Below are positions 22,128 to 37,969 of a stretch of 46,467 nt of DNA, one piece after another (within the stretch, counting starts at the first letter, position 1; each line of letters starts with the position of its first letter). Where the stretch lies: positions 1 to 46,467 of IMG/VR virus record IMGVR_UViG_3300031951_021455. The stretch is one strand, 5' to 3'. The notes below the pieces were generated by a model. That model searched no databases. It saw only the letters and a program-made list of their open reading frames with translations, and had not been told where the DNA came from. Source of the stretch: a virus. The position numbers and the translations under genes were made by a program.

Positions 22128-23198
22128 ATGATTAAAAAGTTTAATCAGTTTATTAAAGAATCTTCACAAGACGGTGTTTTATTATACTATGCTTTTGACT
22201 GGGATGATAATATTCTAAGAATGCCAACTATGATTCGATTGGAACAAAAGGTTGGAGAACAATGGATTCCAACTGATGTATCAACTGCAGAATTTGCAGA
22301 AGTAAGAAATGATAAACAAAACTGGAGATTTTTAAATCAGAGCGGTGATGAGGCTTTTGCTAACTTTAGAGATACTGGTCCTAAGGGAGGTGAAGTTTTT
22401 TTAGAAGATGTCAAAATTGCTGTTTCTTCAGGAAGATTCGCTCCGGCTTGGGAAGATTTTTTAGAGTGTCTTTCCAATGGATCACTTTTTGCTATTATAA
22501 CGGCTCGTGGTCATGAATCCGAAACAATGAGAAGAGGTGTTGAGTGGATTATTGATAATGTATTGACCGAAGAACAACTATATAATATGTACAATAATCT
22601 ATTAAAGTTCTCCTATTTTTATGATATATCTACAGGGTCAGATAGAATACTAAGAGGAGTTCCTTCACAAAATGAATTATTTAAGTTATACTTAGATAAT
22701 TGTGATTTTGTGGGTGTTTCTGCCCCGTCGAGAGGCGGAACTCCAGATAATCCCGAAAAAGCTAAAGAAGAAACTTTGTTACAATTTAAGTCAAAGATAG
22801 ATAGATTTGCGGGTCAATTAGGTATGAAAGCGATGATTGGGTTTTCTGACGATGATTTAGGAAACGTATCTCACATCGAAGATTTAGCTGATAAGTTAAA
22901 TCATGAGGAGTTTCCTAACATAATTAAGTTTGTAGTTAAAGGTACAAAAGATCCAGAAAATATTACAAAGAAAGTAACAATGATGGGTGGTGTTACCGAA
23001 ACCTCAAATCAAACTCCTGGACTTGAAAATTCGGTTTTAACAGCTACTCAATTTGGAAATATGACAAGTAGATTAAATCCAAGTGGTCCTTTAAATAGAC
23101 AAGACGACTTTTTTAACCAATTTCAAAATCAAGTCAAATATTTGTCAAAAACATCAAAAGAAATATTAAAAAATAAAAAAAGAAAGTCCTCTAAATAA
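22128..23198 (+). CDS. HAD-superfamily phosphatase-like protein with capsid-targeting-like N-terminus
   Basis: A 356-residue protein. HAD motifs: YAFDWDDNIL (motif I, nucleophile Asp at about 25 and Asp at about 27), FAIITARGHE (motif II Thr about 125), and GFSDDDLGNV (motif IV acidic pair about 241). Large insertions separate motifs I and II, and the last ~80 residues are unassigned, ending in a Lys-rich tail. HAD enzymes transfer phosphoryl groups from small molecules, proteins or nucleic acid ends. The first 15 residues, MIKKFNQFIKESSQD, resemble the T4 internal-protein targeting peptide, including an Ile-x-Glu site. The stop codon lies inside a terminator stem. It is 3 nt after the acidic gene. 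Confidence 0.75.
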   Translation: MIKKFNQFIKESSQDGVLLYYAFDWDDNILRMPTMIRLEQKVGEQWIPTDVSTAEFAEVRNDKQNWRFLNQSGDEAFANFRDTGPKGGEVFLEDVKIAVSSGRFAPAWEDFLECLSNGSLFAIITARGHESETMRRGVEWIIDNVLTEEQLYNMYNNLLKFSYFYDISTGSDRILRGVPSQNELFKLYLDNCDFVGVSAPSRGGTPDNPEKAKEETLLQFKSKIDRFAGQLGMKAMIGFSDDDLGNVSHIEDLADKLNHEEFPNIIKFVVKGTKDPENITKKVTMMGGVTETSNQTPGLENSVLTATQFGNMTSRLNPSGPLNRQDDFFNQFQNQVKYLSKTSKEILKNKKRKSSK

Positions 23199-25580: not shown

Positions 25581-25678
25581 ATTTCTAATTTTGTATATGC
25601 GTCGCATTTAGTATGTTTAGAAGTTTTACAAGATATTGTAATTGTGCTTAAGATTGCGATTAATATTATTTTTTTCAT
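25559..25678 (-). CDS. Tiny lipoprotein, possible outer-membrane spanin (Rz1-like)
   Basis: A 39-residue frame with a classical lipoprotein signal: MKKIILIAILSTITISC, with Lys-Lys, a hydrophobic core and lipidated Cys at residue 17. The mature part is only 23 residues, starting CKTSKHTKCDAY. Small lipoproteins with a KHxxCDAY-type sequence are, from memory, common in Bacteroidota genomes. Its ATG overlaps the stop of the preceding gene as ATGA, and the stop codon lies in the terminator stem, both signs of a real gene. Position opposite a holin candidate suggests a lysis-related role such as an o-spanin, but it could be a host-acquired envelope protein. Confidence 0.7.
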   Translation of the reverse strand: MKKIILIAILSTITISCKTSKHTKCDAYTKLEIKKDHQI

Positions 25679-26169
25679 CTTTTGTTTTTTCTTCTAGTAC
25701 TTTTGTAACTTTTTGATTCAAATTGCTCGCCAGAGTCGATAATTTCTTCATCTTTTAAAGATGTCATTTCATCTTTGACTTCTTGTTTTTGTCCAGAAGC
25801 TGTTGATTGACTTCCTAAGTTAGCTAAAACATCTTCCGGTGTGGTAAAATATTTTTTTACACCTTTGATATGATATTTTTCTGTTTCTGCTGGAAATGTT
25901 ACCTCTTTTCCATCAATTACAACTGATTTTTGACCAGGTGTGAAATCAACTCCAGCAGCATCTGCTAAAGTTTGAAGTGCTATTTCATATTTATCAGTAG
26001 CTACTTCTTCTTCTTCACCTTCAAACTCTGCTTCCATTTCGGATGGTCGATTGATAGGTGGTCTTCCACCTAAAGACGGTAGATCTCTTACAGGAGCTTC
26101 TAATTCAGGTTCCATTCCTAAATCTTCGTTTAATTTACCTTTTACAAATTGATTATATCTTTTAATCAT
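25675..26169 (-). CDS. Hypothetical protein with capsid-targeting-like N-terminus
   Basis: A 164-residue, mostly disordered protein. The first 16 residues, MIKRYNQFVKGKLNED, match the shared Met-basic-aromatic-x-x-Phe segment, with a Leu-x-Glu site. Residues about 17-60 are Pro/Glu-rich; about 60-115 could fold (YEIALQTLADAAGVDF, a predicted strand pair in SVVIDGKEVTFP, then YHIKGVKKYFTTPEDVLANL). The last 15 residues are basic (YKSTRRKNKR end). Its promoter-like element is 19 nt upstream and the downstream lipoprotein gene is translationally coupled. Function unknown. Confidence 0.65.
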   Translation of the reverse strand: MIKRYNQFVKGKLNEDLGMEPELEAPVRDLPSLGGRPPINRPSEMEAEFEGEEEEVATDKYEIALQTLADAAGVDFTPGQKSVVIDGKEVTFPAETEKYHIKGVKKYFTTPEDVLANLGSQSTASGQKQEVKDEMTSLKDEEIIDSGEQFESKSYKSTRRKNKR

Positions 26170-27377: not shown

Positions 27378-28076
27378 ATGAATCGAATAAAGAAATGGTC
27401 TAGTTTTTATGAGTCTTTACAAACTCCTTTAACAGAGATTGAAAAAGATGAAATTGGAACAGCATTAATATTCGCTTGTAGAAGCGTGTGGGGTTATATA
27501 AATACTTATTTTGTAAGTAATCATGGATTAAAAATTAGGGGTGAAATTTTGAGATTATCAAAAAATAATAGACTTCTAATTGATTATGTTAATAGTATCT
27601 CGCCTTCAAATACAATTTTTGATTTAGTTGAGTGGATTTCAAAAAATCAAAACGAACTATATCATCCAAATGGTCAATATTTCGATAAAGTAATTAAAAT
27701 ATTGACCAATTCTTATAATCGTGGTAGAAGTTTAGAAGAAAAAGCTAAAGATGTTTTAATTGAATATTTTGACTCCACTGGTGTTGTAATTAATCCCTTT
27801 AAACCAAAAAGAGAAAGAGACGAACAAGGTTATGATTTATTTTGGAAAATAAACCAAGGTATTGAATCCGCTCAAATTAAAACTTTAGATAATTTCTCAA
27901 CGGGTAAGACTAGAGACTTTATTCGATGTAAAGGTCATTTGAAAAAACTTGTTACTAACTATTTAGTTGCTATCAATGATTTTGAGTGTTATATTTATAA
28001 AACCTATAACCATCAATTTACATCTGAATACTTTAGTTTTCCTAAATCTAATTTACTTTATCATAAAGTTTTTTAA
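27378..28076 (+). CDS. PD-(D/E)XK nuclease-like protein, shared N-terminal motif
   Basis: A 232-residue protein. The first 15 residues, MNRIKKWSSFYESLQ, match the shared basic/aromatic N-terminal motif. The C-terminal half has the order expected for restriction-endonuclease-fold nucleases: a helix with Glu (LEEKAKDVLIEYF, about 119-131), GYDLFWKI (Asp at about 153) and ESAQIKTLDNF (Gln-x-Lys at about 165-167). The Gln in place of Glu in the last motif is a known variant. A following basic segment (GKTRDFIRCKGHLKKL) could bind DNA. Assignment is by motif order only. Its end overlaps the convergent polymerase gene by 4 nt. Confidence 0.6.
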   Translation: MNRIKKWSSFYESLQTPLTEIEKDEIGTALIFACRSVWGYINTYFVSNHGLKIRGEILRLSKNNRLLIDYVNSISPSNTIFDLVEWISKNQNELYHPNGQYFDKVIKILTNSYNRGRSLEEKAKDVLIEYFDSTGVVINPFKPKRERDEQGYDLFWKINQGIESAQIKTLDNFSTGKTRDFIRCKGHLKKLVTNYLVAINDFECYIYKTYNHQFTSEYFSFPKSNLLYHKVF

Positions 28077-29506
28077 AAACCTTTTCCAAATCCGCTAAAA
28101 ATATCCATAACAACTGATAATCTTTTGGTTATTTCTGGCATTCCTAATGGTTCTATAATTGAATTTACCGGAGAAAGAATAGACTTCTCAAATTGTTCAT
28201 CAAAGTCTATTTGTGGAGCAAATTCCATAGGAAAAGAACCCCTAATATAAGCAAACATATCAGTTATTGATTTATCTTTACAAACATAGTACTTAATTTT
28301 AGTTCCGGATTTAATAAACTCATACTTTTGTTGCATTTCTTTGTCTTTAGATAGTAAGTAATTGTAATGAGCGGCAGATTTAACAGCGAAGTGAGCTCCT
28401 GAAACAAATTGCAATGGTAGTGTCTTATCATTTAAAACCTTAACATCATAATTTGAACAAGACGACTGCATTGCAATATCATCAATATCTGCTAGTTCAA
28501 ATTCTTTTCTCAGATTTTTTACTAATTTTAATAACTCTTTAATGTTAAAAGTGTCTGGGTGTGAAAAAAGATACTTAACGATTCCTACAATCTTGTCTCT
28601 AGCAAAAGCTGGAGTAGAAGAACGAACTAGTTCAACGCCTTTTGGATAAAGATAAGTTAGTCTATCATATGGTATGCCATCTTCAAAAAGAATATGTTGG
28701 ATGTATTTCTTTTTAGCAATGTTAATAATTGATTCAGAAATTCTTTCAAGTTCAAAGTCTTCTTTATTTTCGACACCAAATGAAGAGGCGTAGTCTTCGA
28801 GACACTTTTTAAAATAACCAGCATATCTAAACTGGTCTATTCCTTGAATATAATCGGTTTCATTTGACCAGTTCCATCTGATTTCTGATGTCAAAACTCC
28901 ATTGTCTATTAGTGAGTTTAGTTTTCTATCCTTTACTAGATTACCATCTATTAATAAAATATCATAGGGTAAATTTAGATTTTTTTCTAAATCTGCAACT
29001 TTATTGAAAATTCCTAAACAATTTATAGAATTTGTTTTAAAATCTTCGTTAGTGGTGAGTAGTAAAAATTTTTTTTCAAAATTAGTAAGATAATCTTCAT
29101 TAAAAATTAAATTTTGCCACTCTGAGTGGTCAATTGCTGGTTTAAATGTAACAAATAGTGAATCGGTGTCAGCATATATAGAAACTGGTTTATCTTTATC
29201 TATTGGTGTTACATTTTTTATTCCTAACTTGTAGTGTAGTTCGTGGTCTGAATGCCATTGTTTGTACCAATAGTCTTCATTTACTTTATCCATCGTTCTA
29301 GTTAAATCTCGACCTTGTGCTGTGATTGTACCAGCGACATGGTTGTTATAAAGAATAAAATAAGAAGTTGCAAAAGCACCGTATGATCCATTTAATACAA
29401 GTTTAAGAGCTAGTTGTAATGCGTTATAATAATCAACTTCTTTTTTTAAGTCCGAAGCCTTTTTTTTGAGTAATTCAATTTTTTTGATTTTCTCTTCTTT
29501 AGTCAT
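28073..29506 (-). CDS. 43: Family B DNA polymerase, C-terminal part only (gp43-like)
   Basis: A 477-residue protein holding the second half of a family B polymerase. Motif B, ALKLVLNGSYGA, is at about residues 33-44 and motif C, IYADTDSLF, at about 110-118, with both catalytic Asp residues. The 3'-5' exonuclease domain and motif A (the Asp-x-x-Ser-Leu-Tyr-Pro-Ser block) are absent: upstream bases carry no polymerase-like frame and no other gene here contains them. The protein would need a partner encoded elsewhere. The N-terminal 30 residues form a Lys/Glu-rich helix as in the fingers of T4 gp43. The C-terminus, MDIFSGFGKGF, could be a clamp-binding tail. ATG 29506 follows a TAATATAAAA stretch; a longer frame to 29566 adds unrelated residues. 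Confidence 0.85.
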   Translation of the reverse strand: MTKEEKIKKIELLKKKASDLKKEVDYYNALQLALKLVLNGSYGAFATSYFILYNNHVAGTITAQGRDLTRTMDKVNEDYWYKQWHSDHELHYKLGIKNVTPIDKDKPVSIYADTDSLFVTFKPAIDHSEWQNLIFNEDYLTNFEKKFLLLTTNEDFKTNSINCLGIFNKVADLEKNLNLPYDILLIDGNLVKDRKLNSLIDNGVLTSEIRWNWSNETDYIQGIDQFRYAGYFKKCLEDYASSFGVENKEDFELERISESIINIAKKKYIQHILFEDGIPYDRLTYLYPKGVELVRSSTPAFARDKIVGIVKYLFSHPDTFNIKELLKLVKNLRKEFELADIDDIAMQSSCSNYDVKVLNDKTLPLQFVSGAHFAVKSAAHYNYLLSKDKEMQQKYEFIKSGTKIKYYVCKDKSITDMFAYIRGSFPMEFAPQIDFDEQFEKSILSPVNSIIEPLGMPEITKRLSVVMDIFSGFGKGF

Positions 29507-29562
29507 AAATTTTATATTACAATAACCAAAAAAGTTTTTTTGAAAAAAAATCGATTTTAAAG

Positions 29563-29572
29563 TCAATATATA
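29563..29572 (+). promoter_or_regulatory. TCAATATATA promoter-like element, long-spacer class
   Basis: One mismatch to consensus, 20 nt before the ATG at 29593; supports the 51-residue gene. Confidence 0.45.
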
Positions 29573-33150: not shown

Positions 33151-34269
33151 ATGATAACAAAATACGATGGTTTTATATTAGAAAAACTAAAGTTTGAAAT
33201 CTTTTCTCTTTTAGAAGGTCGAGTTTATAGCACGACTGATTTTTTATTTAAATTAAAATCATTAGTAAAACAACCAGGTAAAGTAGGTGAAATTGCCGAT
33301 CAAATATTAGATATAATAGAGAGTGAGCAGTATTTCCCAGATGATAAAATTAAACAAAACTATTTTGATTTAGTTGATTCTGAAGATATGGTTGGGTTTA
33401 TAAATCAATCAAAGGTAAATTCTAAAAAAGATGAAATTTATGATAATCCTAATTTTCCTTATACAATGCCCGGCAGAGGTGAGGTAAAAATTGGTAAAAT
33501 TGTAAATTATATTTGTTCTTTAAGAGGAATTAACGTGAGTGATTCTGATAGAGAGTCTTTTGTAAATTCTTGGAAAGCTTCTACGGAAGTATCAACGATT
33601 CAATTCAAATTAGTATCTGGTGAAGATATTGCAAAATATTATGATGAAAATAAATATTACAGTCGAAAAGGAACTTTAGGAAGTTCTTGTATGAGAGATG
33701 AAGGTAAAAGAACTTTTAAGATTTATACTGAAAATCCAGATAAAGTAAAACTTCTTATTTATGTTGATTCTGATGATAAAATTCATGGAAGAGCTCTTGT
33801 CTGGAAGGTTAAAAAATCACCTTGTGATTCTAAATACTTTATGGATAGAGTTTATGCTAACCGAGATTCGGATGTTAATAGATTTAAACAATTTGCGGAT
33901 ACAGAAGGTTGGTTTTATAAGAAAGTTATTTCATCACATGATAGTGATAGCGTTCGTTTCATTTATAAAGGCGAAGAAGTATCCGGTGAAGTTAAATTAA
34001 AGTTAAAAGGCGACTTTAATATGTATCCTTATGTTGATACTATGTGTTTTTTAAGTAAAGATAAAGATAGTTTGTCTAATTTATCTGACAAAAATTGTTA
34101 TTACTTACATAGTGTTTATGGTGAAAGAGAAAGATGTGAAGATTGTGAAGGTGATGTTATCACAACAAACTGGGACGGTGATAAAGTGTTATGTTCTGAA
34201 TGTTCATCAGGTCACCAAGCTCTAAAAGATCTGCGTATCGAAACTAAATGGAATAAAAAAGTCGATTAA
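33151..34269 (+). CDS. Conserved-type phage protein with GTLGSSCM motif and C-terminal zinc ribbon
   Basis: A 372-residue protein. The N-terminus (MITKYDGFILEKLKFE) fits the shared motif loosely, with an Ile-Leu-Glu site. The centre carries motifs I recognise from uncharacterised phage proteins: KLVSGEDIAKYYDEN, SRKGTLGSSCMRDE (about 171-184), FKIYTENPDKVKLLIYVD, GRALVWKV, FMDRVYAN and FKQFADTEGWFYK. Residues about 330-352 (CEDCEGD, then CSECS) form a zinc ribbon. The invariant-looking Cys in GTLGSSCM and the surrounding basic residues suggest a catalytic or nucleic-acid-binding site, but no reaction is known to me. Its end overlaps the convergent UvsY-like gene by 4 nt. Confidence 0.7.
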   Translation: MITKYDGFILEKLKFEIFSLLEGRVYSTTDFLFKLKSLVKQPGKVGEIADQILDIIESEQYFPDDKIKQNYFDLVDSEDMVGFINQSKVNSKKDEIYDNPNFPYTMPGRGEVKIGKIVNYICSLRGINVSDSDRESFVNSWKASTEVSTIQFKLVSGEDIAKYYDENKYYSRKGTLGSSCMRDEGKRTFKIYTENPDKVKLLIYVDSDDKIHGRALVWKVKKSPCDSKYFMDRVYANRDSDVNRFKQFADTEGWFYKKVISSHDSDSVRFIYKGEEVSGEVKLKLKGDFNMYPYVDTMCFLSKDKDSLSNLSDKNCYYLHSVYGERERCEDCEGDVITTNWDGDKVLCSECSSGHQALKDLRIETKWNKKVD

Positions 34270-36004: not shown

Positions 36005-36037
36005 AAAAAACCCAGTCATTTTGACTGGGTTTTTTTT
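36005..36037. terminator. Bidirectional hairpin terminator
   Basis: AACCCAGTCA at 36009-36018 pairs exactly with TGACTGGGTT at 36022-36031 (3-nt loop), A-run before, T-run after. It separates the lysin gene from the convergent gene ending at 36036. Confidence 0.88.
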
Positions 36038-36767
36038 ATTTAAAGTTTCCAAAACTTTTTATATTTTTCATTTCATCTTCTAAATCTTTATTAGCCAAAT
36101 GACTCTCGGTCTCTTCGTGTGATGGTTCATCATAATGATGATGTCCTTGGTCTTCAGATGGTACATCGTGACCAGCTAAGAAATTGAATACTTCCTCGAT
36201 ATCATCTTTAGATGTTGCAATATGATCTAATGCCCAGTTGTGACCATTTGATAATTTAGCATCAACTTCAGATTCATCCATTTCTAACATCTCATCAACT
36301 AATCTTTTAATTGTTTTTAAATTTCCAAAAAACATATAATTTTGTGTATTCTGGTGTTCTTTTAGTCCTTTAAGTGTTTTTGCTAAATTTAATTTTCTGT
36401 ATTTTGCTAAATCATTTTTAGAAAGACCTTGTACTCCTTTTTTCTTAGGATCTTTGTCTTTTCCTTTTAGAGCCTCTAGTTCGGAGTCAATTTCTTTCTT
36501 TGAAATTTTTTCTCCTTCTTTTTTGTCCATAGATTTTCTTAAAGATCCTGGATTTTTGATAGCGTCTTTAATCCATTTTTCTCCTTTCTTCTCCTGAGTC
36601 ATAGTGTTATTATTTATATAGTTTTCTTCCTCTGTTGCTCTACACATTTCTTCAAGTTCTTGATTTGAACATTCTTCGAGTTCGCTCATAGTATATCCAC
36701 ATCTGCAAAGAGCACTACACATTTCTTCTCTAGACATATAACTTTCAAATTTTTGAATAACTTTCAT
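36036..36767 (-). CDS. Hypothetical protein with shared N-terminal module and basic centre
   Basis: A 243-residue protein. Residues 1-50 (MKVIQKFESYMSREEMCSAL, then a Glu-rich SNQELEEMCRATEEE helix) match the module at the start of the protein at 32062. Residues about 62-130 are Lys-rich with WIKDAIKNPGSLRKSMDKKE, then RKLNLAKTLKGLKE, a pattern common in phage proteins and likely to bind nucleic acid. Residues about 140-200 are helical; a His-rich patch (GHHHYDEPSHEE) at about 208-219 may bind metal. The C-terminus KNIKSFGNFK again shows Phe-x-x-Phe. Promoter-like element 19 nt upstream. Function unknown. Confidence 0.65.
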   Translation of the reverse strand: MKVIQKFESYMSREEMCSALCRCGYTMSELEECSNQELEEMCRATEEENYINNNTMTQEKKGEKWIKDAIKNPGSLRKSMDKKEGEKISKKEIDSELEALKGKDKDPKKKGVQGLSKNDLAKYRKLNLAKTLKGLKEHQNTQNYMFFGNLKTIKRLVDEMLEMDESEVDAKLSNGHNWALDHIATSKDDIEEVFNFLAGHDVPSEDQGHHHYDEPSHEETESHLANKDLEDEMKNIKSFGNFK

Positions 36768-36800: not shown

Positions 36801-37955
36801 TTAAATCAGAATATTAACTACTTCAGGGTAGTATTTACTCATTTCTGGATTTTTATCAGAATAGTCTACTTTAGATATAACATATCTCATAGCGTTTAAC
36901 CTACCAATCTTTTTATCATTTGAGTTAATAATAACCCAAGGAGACAATCTAGATGAAGTTTGTTGAAACATCTGTCTTTTAAAGTTTCCAATAACTTCCC
37001 ATTTGTCTAATACTTTTGCGTCGTTTGGAGAGAACTTCCAATATTTAAGTGGTGATTTTTGTCTTAATTCAAATCTTTTAATTTGTTTATCTTGCGTAAT
37101 TGAGAACCAGAATTTTATAAGTATCAAACCATTTCTGATTTGTTTTTCTTCCCAATCTATAACTTTATCCATAAAGTCTTGATATTGTTCTTCTGTGCAA
37201 TATCCCATAGCTGGTTCAACAACTGCTCTATTGTACCAACTTCTATCAAAGAAAACTATTTCTCCTGAATTAGGCAAGTGTGTCTCATATCTTTGGAACC
37301 AATTGTTTTTTTCCTCATCAGTTGGAACACCTAGTGCTACAACTTTAAATCCTTTTGGATCCAAATATTCAACAAATCTTTTAATAGTTGATCCTTTACC
37401 TGCGGCATCTCTACCTTCAAATACAATTGCTACTTTTTTTCCGTTTGCCTTAACCCATTCTTGAAGTTTTAATAGTTCAACCTGTAATTGATATTTTTCA
37501 GATTCATATTGTCTTCTTCCTAAAATTGAACCTTCTCCTTCAAATTGGTCAAAATGATCTTCAGTTTTTCCTGTCTGATGTAATTGGTCAATTCTTACTT
37601 CTATTGACTTGTAGTAGTCATCAAAGGATTCTCTAACTTTTCTTTTAGTATTTCTTTTTTTAAGTTCTAATATTTGATTTAATTTTCTTAAAAATGCTTC
37701 TAAGTTTAATTCTTGAACAACTTCTTCTGTAAATTCATTAGTTAGTTCTCTTATCATTACTTTAATATCGATTGTTTCGAATTCTTTATACTCTACTTTA
37801 TTCGTTGTTAAATTATAATTGATGTTTGATAGAATAAATGTTCGATACTCATTTAATCTAAAAAGTAAATTTCTTTTTAGAGTATCTACTGAAGGTTTAT
37901 CCATGTCTTCAATCCATAATTCTTCTCTTATAAAGTTTGAAAATCTTTTTAACAT
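36801..37955 (-). CDS. ppk2: Polyphosphate kinase 2 (PPK2) with capsid-targeting-like N-terminus
   Basis: A 384-residue protein. The C-terminal ~230 residues are a PPK2 kinase domain: FEGRDAAGKGSTIKRF (Walker A, about 180-194), GVPTDEEKNNWFQRYETHLP, FFDRSWYNRAVVEP (Walker B, about 235-248), MGYCTEEQYQ, LIKFWFSI and LKYWKFSPNDAKVLDKW. Single-domain PPK2 enzymes of this size usually transfer phosphate between polyphosphate and ADP or GDP to make ATP or GTP. The N-terminal ~130 residues are an extension of helices beginning MLKRFSNFIREELWIED, the shared basic/aromatic motif with an Ile-x-Glu site. All catalytic motifs look intact. The start is 4 nt after TTAATATATA. PPK2 in a phage could draw on host polyphosphate to fuel replication. 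Confidence 0.9.
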   Translation of the reverse strand: MLKRFSNFIREELWIEDMDKPSVDTLKRNLLFRLNEYRTFILSNINYNLTTNKVEYKEFETIDIKVMIRELTNEFTEEVVQELNLEAFLRKLNQILELKKRNTKRKVRESFDDYYKSIEVRIDQLHQTGKTEDHFDQFEGEGSILGRRQYESEKYQLQVELLKLQEWVKANGKKVAIVFEGRDAAGKGSTIKRFVEYLDPKGFKVVALGVPTDEEKNNWFQRYETHLPNSGEIVFFDRSWYNRAVVEPAMGYCTEEQYQDFMDKVIDWEEKQIRNGLILIKFWFSITQDKQIKRFELRQKSPLKYWKFSPNDAKVLDKWEVIGNFKRQMFQQTSSRLSPWVIINSNDKKIGRLNAMRYVISKVDYSDKNPEMSKYYPEVVNILI

Positions 37956-37959
37956 GATT

Positions 37960-37969
37960 TATATATTAA
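37960..37969 (-). promoter_or_regulatory. TTAATATATA promoter-like element, short-spacer class
   Basis: Exact decamer, 4 nt before the ATG of the PPK2 gene. Confidence 0.55.

Follow-up and report, generated by a model that had tools for sequence, protein, structure and literature searches.

A class I polyphosphate kinase 2 of a giant bacteriophage carries a T4-like leader that may target it to the capsid

A class I PPK2 with an intact active site

The window analyzed here is a 46,467-base IMG/VR fragment, part of a giant bacteriophage genome. At positions 36801..37955 of the minus strand lies an open reading frame (ORF) that starts with ATG and encodes a protein of 384 residues, which an earlier note had read as a polyphosphate kinase 2 (PPK2). 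Family models, the class residue, and the predicted structure all bear out this identity. Residues 147 to 369 match the Pfam PPK2 family (PF03976, E = 9e-79), and the ORF scores 312.4 bits with the NCBIfam model TIGR03707, whose cut-off is 301.8; all other PPK2-type family models fall below their own cut-offs. The catalytic motifs that the note had described as intact are both present, GRDAAGKGS at residues 181 to 189 and FFDRSWYNR at residues 235 to 243.

Using published active-site and class criteria (PMC4748334 and PMC8776046), we mapped the protein onto the active site of Francisella PPK2, its nearest solved relative. The catalytic domain spans residues 145 to 384 (36804..37523, minus strand). 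It retains D183 and K187 of Walker A, D237 and R238 of Walker B, the lid residues R294, R298, and K304, and the polyphosphate-site residues K348, K349, and R352. The sole checked active-site residue that differs is His76 of the Francisella polyphosphate site, which is Tyr197 in the phage. The residue following Walker B, which is Asn in class I, Gly in class II, and Glu in class III (PMC8776046), is Asn242, a class I mark. An AlphaFold2 model of the whole protein (pLDDT 87) superimposes on Francisella PPK2 (5LLB) with a Z score of 34.7 and an rmsd of 1.2 over 238 residues at 51% identity. Thymidylate kinase was suggested by the only PHROG match and by the name given to the nearest BFVD entry. 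We rejected this assignment, since PPK2 models score far higher and thymidylate kinase structures reach a Z score of 12.6 against the phage model, versus 24 to 35 for PPK2 structures. Checked against non-PPK2 kinases, the protein groups with class I PPK2s by sequence, class residue, and structure.

The ORF is therefore firmly supported as a class I PPK2 with an intact active site and, judging from its retained residues, very probably encodes an active enzyme. The dN/dS ratio in the PPK2 domain (0.03 to 0.10) indicates purifying selection, an imprecise estimate given that dS exceeds 1 in the compared pairs. The phage enzyme shares its fold, Walker A and B motifs, Asn class residue, lid R-x3-R, and polyphosphate-site lysines with the class I enzymes FtPPK2 of Francisella tularensis (5LL0/5LLB) and SMc02148 of S. 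meliloti (3CZQ). Unlike them, it has Tyr197 in place of His76, belongs to a phage-specific clade, and carries an 11-residue leader and a helical domain of about 115 residues in front of the catalytic domain.

Relatives of the phage and phylogeny of its PPK2

Contigs carrying a 100% identical PPK2 also contain matches to a gp23-type capsid protein and a gp21-type protease. The closest records in the annotated collection are genomes of 634, 642, and 735 kb, which by their sizes are putative Mahaphages, a group predicted to infect Bacteroidetes (PMC7162821). The last 16 kb of the window had no near match among annotated phages, and a genome-contig search with the PPK2 protein as the single query returned no match. 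A search for PPK1 in eight related records found none. At 28073..29566 (minus strand), the window also encodes a 497-residue ORF that covers a family-B DNA polymerase only in part (PF00136, E = 2e-19); the polymerase ORFs of the relatives are likewise short, which suggests a split polymerase.

In our tree, 62 phage PPK2 sequences group together with SH-aLRT support of 99. Three bacterial-labelled sequences (L179, L199, and L243) fall inside this clade on long branches, and contamination, phage remnants, or long-branch error are candidate causes. Recent acquisition of PPK2 from a host is unsupported, since the phage sequences form one group and these three are the only bacterial-labelled rows within it.

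A leader resembling the T4 capsid-targeting sequence

The earlier note had described an N-terminal extension of about 130 residues that begins with a capsid-targeting-like motif. The motif is indeed found at its start, but the extension is not one unit: residues 1 to 10 are disordered in the AlphaFold2 model (pLDDT about 40 over 11 residues), whereas residues from about 14 to 130 form a confidently predicted helical domain, a separate fold unit. The extension is thus a short leader followed by a domain. This domain and its linker (37536..37922, minus strand) lie outside the solved PPK2 domain, and comparison with the PDB gave no convincing structural match (best Foldseek E value, 0.6; best Z score, 6.5).

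The leader, MLKRFSNFIRE (residues 1 to 11; 37923..37955, minus strand), is a predicted capsid-targeting propeptide with a predicted gp21-type cleavage site after Glu11. The T4 capsid-targeting sequence consists of ten residues, MKTYQEFIAE, and T4 gp21 cuts after L/I-x-E; in IPIII, residues 4 and 7 are needed for targeting and residues 8 and 10 for processing (PMC9026906). F5, F8, I9, and E11 of the phage leader match these mapped positions with T4 spacing, aromatic-x-x-Phe for targeting and Ile-x-Glu for gp21 cleavage. As in IPII and IPIII of T4, the aromatic-x-x-Phe-Ile-x-Glu leader lies at the extreme N terminus and includes a gp21-type cleavage motif. As a control, the strict pattern matched 3 of 239 T4 ORFs: IpII, IpIII, and a 76-residue ORF immediately downstream of the uvsW position. 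Since the first 11 residues of the phage PPK2 match a T4 head-loading tag, it may enter the cell together with the viral DNA. Unlike IPII and IPIII, the cargo whose packaging is predicted here is a metabolic enzyme.

The 28 distinct leaders of the PPK2 group vary. All four positions are kept in 17 and the cleavage site only in 6 more; the full motif is missing from 11, including that of a close 436-kb relative (MNYKKILEE), which counts against packaging. Across 21 aligned phage PPK2s, Glu11 alone among the first 40 residues reaches a conservation of at least 90%.

The leader recurs on mostly unrelated proteins

The leader is common genome-wide. The pattern [FYW]xxF[ILMV]xE occurs within the first nine positions in 21 of 882 and 25 of 912 ORFs of two complete relatives, and its interior frequency predicts about one; the leader match is thus not due to chance. 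A leader profile built from PPK2 N termini recovered, at a threshold of at least 9 bits, 31 of the 882 ORFs of the 634-kb genome (background at internal Met positions, 0/2,707) and 36 of the 912 ORFs of the 642-kb genome (background, 2/2,860). After removal of their first 25 residues, the leader-bearing ORFs sort into 29 homology groups in the first genome and 31 in the second. Orthologues tend to keep the leader: of 390 reciprocal-best pairs, 16 have it in both members, 13 in one, and 361 in neither (p = 1.6e-18). This arrangement resembles the T-even internal proteins, in which a common leader precedes bodies without homology, but roughly ten times as many proteins bear the leader as in T4.

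Only one T4-homologous ORF bears the leader in each genome (1 of 27 and 1 of 26), RNA ligase 1 in both. In these two genomes, we did not find the leader on homologues of the polymerase, helicase, terminase, topoisomerase, recombination, or tail proteins. The RNA ligase of T4 itself does not appear in a published list of head-core proteins (PMC9958956), so a leader-bearing RNA ligase 1 counts against packaging, as does the lack of a known function for most of the other bearers. A GH108 domain is also among the recognizable bearers. In the 634-kb relative, the leader further precedes a SMODS-associated NUDIX domain (L047:824-1435, E = 4e-30), of a kind linked to CBASS-type systems, and a protein combining a 2H phosphoesterase/Acb1-like domain with an RNase_T exonuclease (L052:8257-9573), possibly a packaged anti-CBASS factor.

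Within the window, the downstream neighbor of PPK2 (36036..36767, minus strand) has a leader-like start, MKVIQKFESYMSREE, and a late-type box (see below); its product shares a similar WIKDAI..PGSLR segment with the gene that follows PPK2 in the 642-kb relative. Other leader-bearing genes are MIKKFNQFIKES at 22128..23198 (plus strand), whose body has no family match; MIKRYNQFVKGKLNE at 25675..26169 (minus strand), with a weak PHROG head-protein match; and MITKYDGFILEK at 33151..34269 (plus strand), with a late-type box at −15.

Late-type promoters and a gp21-type protease

A late-promoter-like box, AATATATA, lies 12 to 5 bases before the PPK2 ATG (37960..37967, minus strand). Defined as AATATATA or TTATATATA within 80 bases upstream of a gene, the late-type box precedes 13 of the 14 structural genes and 41 of the 67 leader genes. 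The corresponding figures are 7 of 27 for replication genes, about 24% for other genes, and less than 1% for gene interiors. The box is present in 26 of the 28 distinct upstream regions of the PPK2 group, at −12 in the window. Both the box and the leader models derive from the very genomes on which they were scored, and the box was picked after viewing them, so the structural genes are what ties it to lateness. Given its box, PPK2 is probably present late in infection. Many window genes have the late-type box 12 to 15 bases before the ATG, which would yield near-leaderless transcripts. The motif TAnnTTTG, which we take to be the Bacteroidota house-keeping promoter, is found upstream of 12 to 15% of other genes versus 5 to 7% in gene interiors, an excess that offers an independent, weak hint of a Bacteroidota host.

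The gp21-type protease gene lies outside the window and was seen in the contigs with an identical PPK2 and in the complete relatives. In the former, the protease matches have E values of about 1e-5 and about 20 to 25 bits, below the Pfam cut-off of 27. In the relatives, the protease ORFs encode about 700 residues and adjoin the capsid gene, and their His and Ser motifs are intact, HPD and VSSR aligning with HPP and VSSR of T4 gp21. The relatives' capsid protein has a single L/I-x-E within its first 75 residues, EFHSINE|NAY, the counterpart of FGSFLTE|AEI in T4 gp23. The match to T4 positions, the genome-wide leader, the late-type promoters, and the gp21-type protease together give strong indirect support to a capsid-targeting function of the leader.

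A possible role at the start of infection

We propose that PPK2 would be made late in infection, drawn into the prohead core by its N-terminal capsid-targeting sequence MLKRFSNFIRE, and cut after Glu11 by the gp21-type prohead protease of the phage. The freed enzyme would enter the next host together with the phage DNA and move phosphate from host polyphosphate to ADP and GDP, the resulting ATP and GTP supplying NTPs ahead of phage gene expression. Packaging, cleavage, injection, the direction of the reaction in vivo, and the benefit are what we infer from the genomes. That PPK2 is packaged in the virion is likely, and the account as a whole is fairly likely; whether early NTP supply is the main benefit is an even call. 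The class I enzyme of P. aeruginosa prefers NDP phosphorylation over polyphosphate synthesis 75-fold (PMC8776046). The earlier note had placed nucleotide recharging in the first minutes of infection, a timing that we also infer; its suggestion that this would be useful in energy-poor hosts found no support in this analysis. If PPK2 is packaged, the phage delivers an energy-metabolism enzyme with its genome and taps host polyphosphate before transcription.

PPK2 could instead be an ordinary auxiliary metabolic gene, acting late in the producing cell to provide NTPs for replication and packaging, with a leader that is vestigial or serves something other than packaging. One study reports virus-encoded ppk2 and its transcription in reservoirs (PMC13188868), the late-type box would probably place PPK2 late in the cell anyway, and leaders are degraded in several relatives. 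Yet such a gene would leave unexplained why 31 to 36 mostly unrelated proteins per genome share the leader, why T4-core homologues lack it, and why E11 is conserved; we consider this explanation improbable. We find it very unlikely that the leader sends proteins elsewhere, such as to a replication compartment or the host membrane, and merely resembles the T4 sequence. Destination is not readable from sequence, and short N-terminal helices have several uses, but this leader matches the T4 targeting and processing positions and occurs alongside late-type promoters and a gp21-type protease.

A further unlikely alternative accepts packaging and assigns the enzyme to counter-defense: it would strip the host of its polyphosphate or replenish nucleotides that a defense system has depleted. 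The company that PPK2 keeps fits this, as the leader is also carried by RNA ligase 1, the SMODS-associated NUDIX protein, and the 2H/Acb1-like exonuclease protein, and T4 internal proteins are anti-restriction factors (PMC12373910). However, this analysis shows no known defense that PPK2 would counter, and the chemistry is that of energy supply, making the two inseparable by sequence.

That phages carry PPK2 as an auxiliary gene has been reported before, and the new part here is its predicted packaging. A 2025 paper in Water Research, which the reservoir study cites, reportedly treats ppk genes of viruses as auxiliary metabolic genes. The reservoir study likewise reports ppk2 as an auxiliary metabolic gene in phage contigs, and its accessible part mentions neither a leader nor packaging (PMC13188868). 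A literature search that left most subscription journals outside its reach found no report joining PPK2 to megaphages or packaging.

A second group of phages with PPK2

Another 30 or so viral PPK2s form a second group, with leaders like MKxLLNExxRIKxxMG or with PPK2 placed within longer ORFs. In one 268-kb contig, a profile found this leader type on ten ORFs versus one internal match; a narrow pattern gave single matches. The MLKRFSNFIRE-type leader is at chance level in that contig. A tentative reading, at slightly less than even odds, is that Mahaphages and, separately, this second group with a different leader load dozens of enzymes into the virion as an infection starter kit that includes PPK2, RNA ligase, NUDIX, and 2H-type counter-defense proteins. 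If so, a bacteriophage would bring along a phosphotransfer enzyme of its own when it infects a cell. Much of the proteome of the largest known phages lacks annotation, and the leader singles out about 30 to 50 proteins per genome, few with a known function, as candidates for injection that can be tested.

In seven representatives of the second group, PPK2 is embedded in ORFs of 541 to 1,619 residues. L/I/M-x-E triplets flank the PPK2 module in most of the seven, for example, IINE|GFFD before it and KLNE|EQLS after it, as judged by eye in a Glu-rich background. In L133, L136, L148, L151, and L154, PPK2 lies within ORFs of 762 to 1,619 residues with other modules, two of them with a DUF4314-like N terminus. 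A TATTTAT box precedes 21 to 29% of ORFs in this group (L264 to L302), versus less than 2% in gene interiors.
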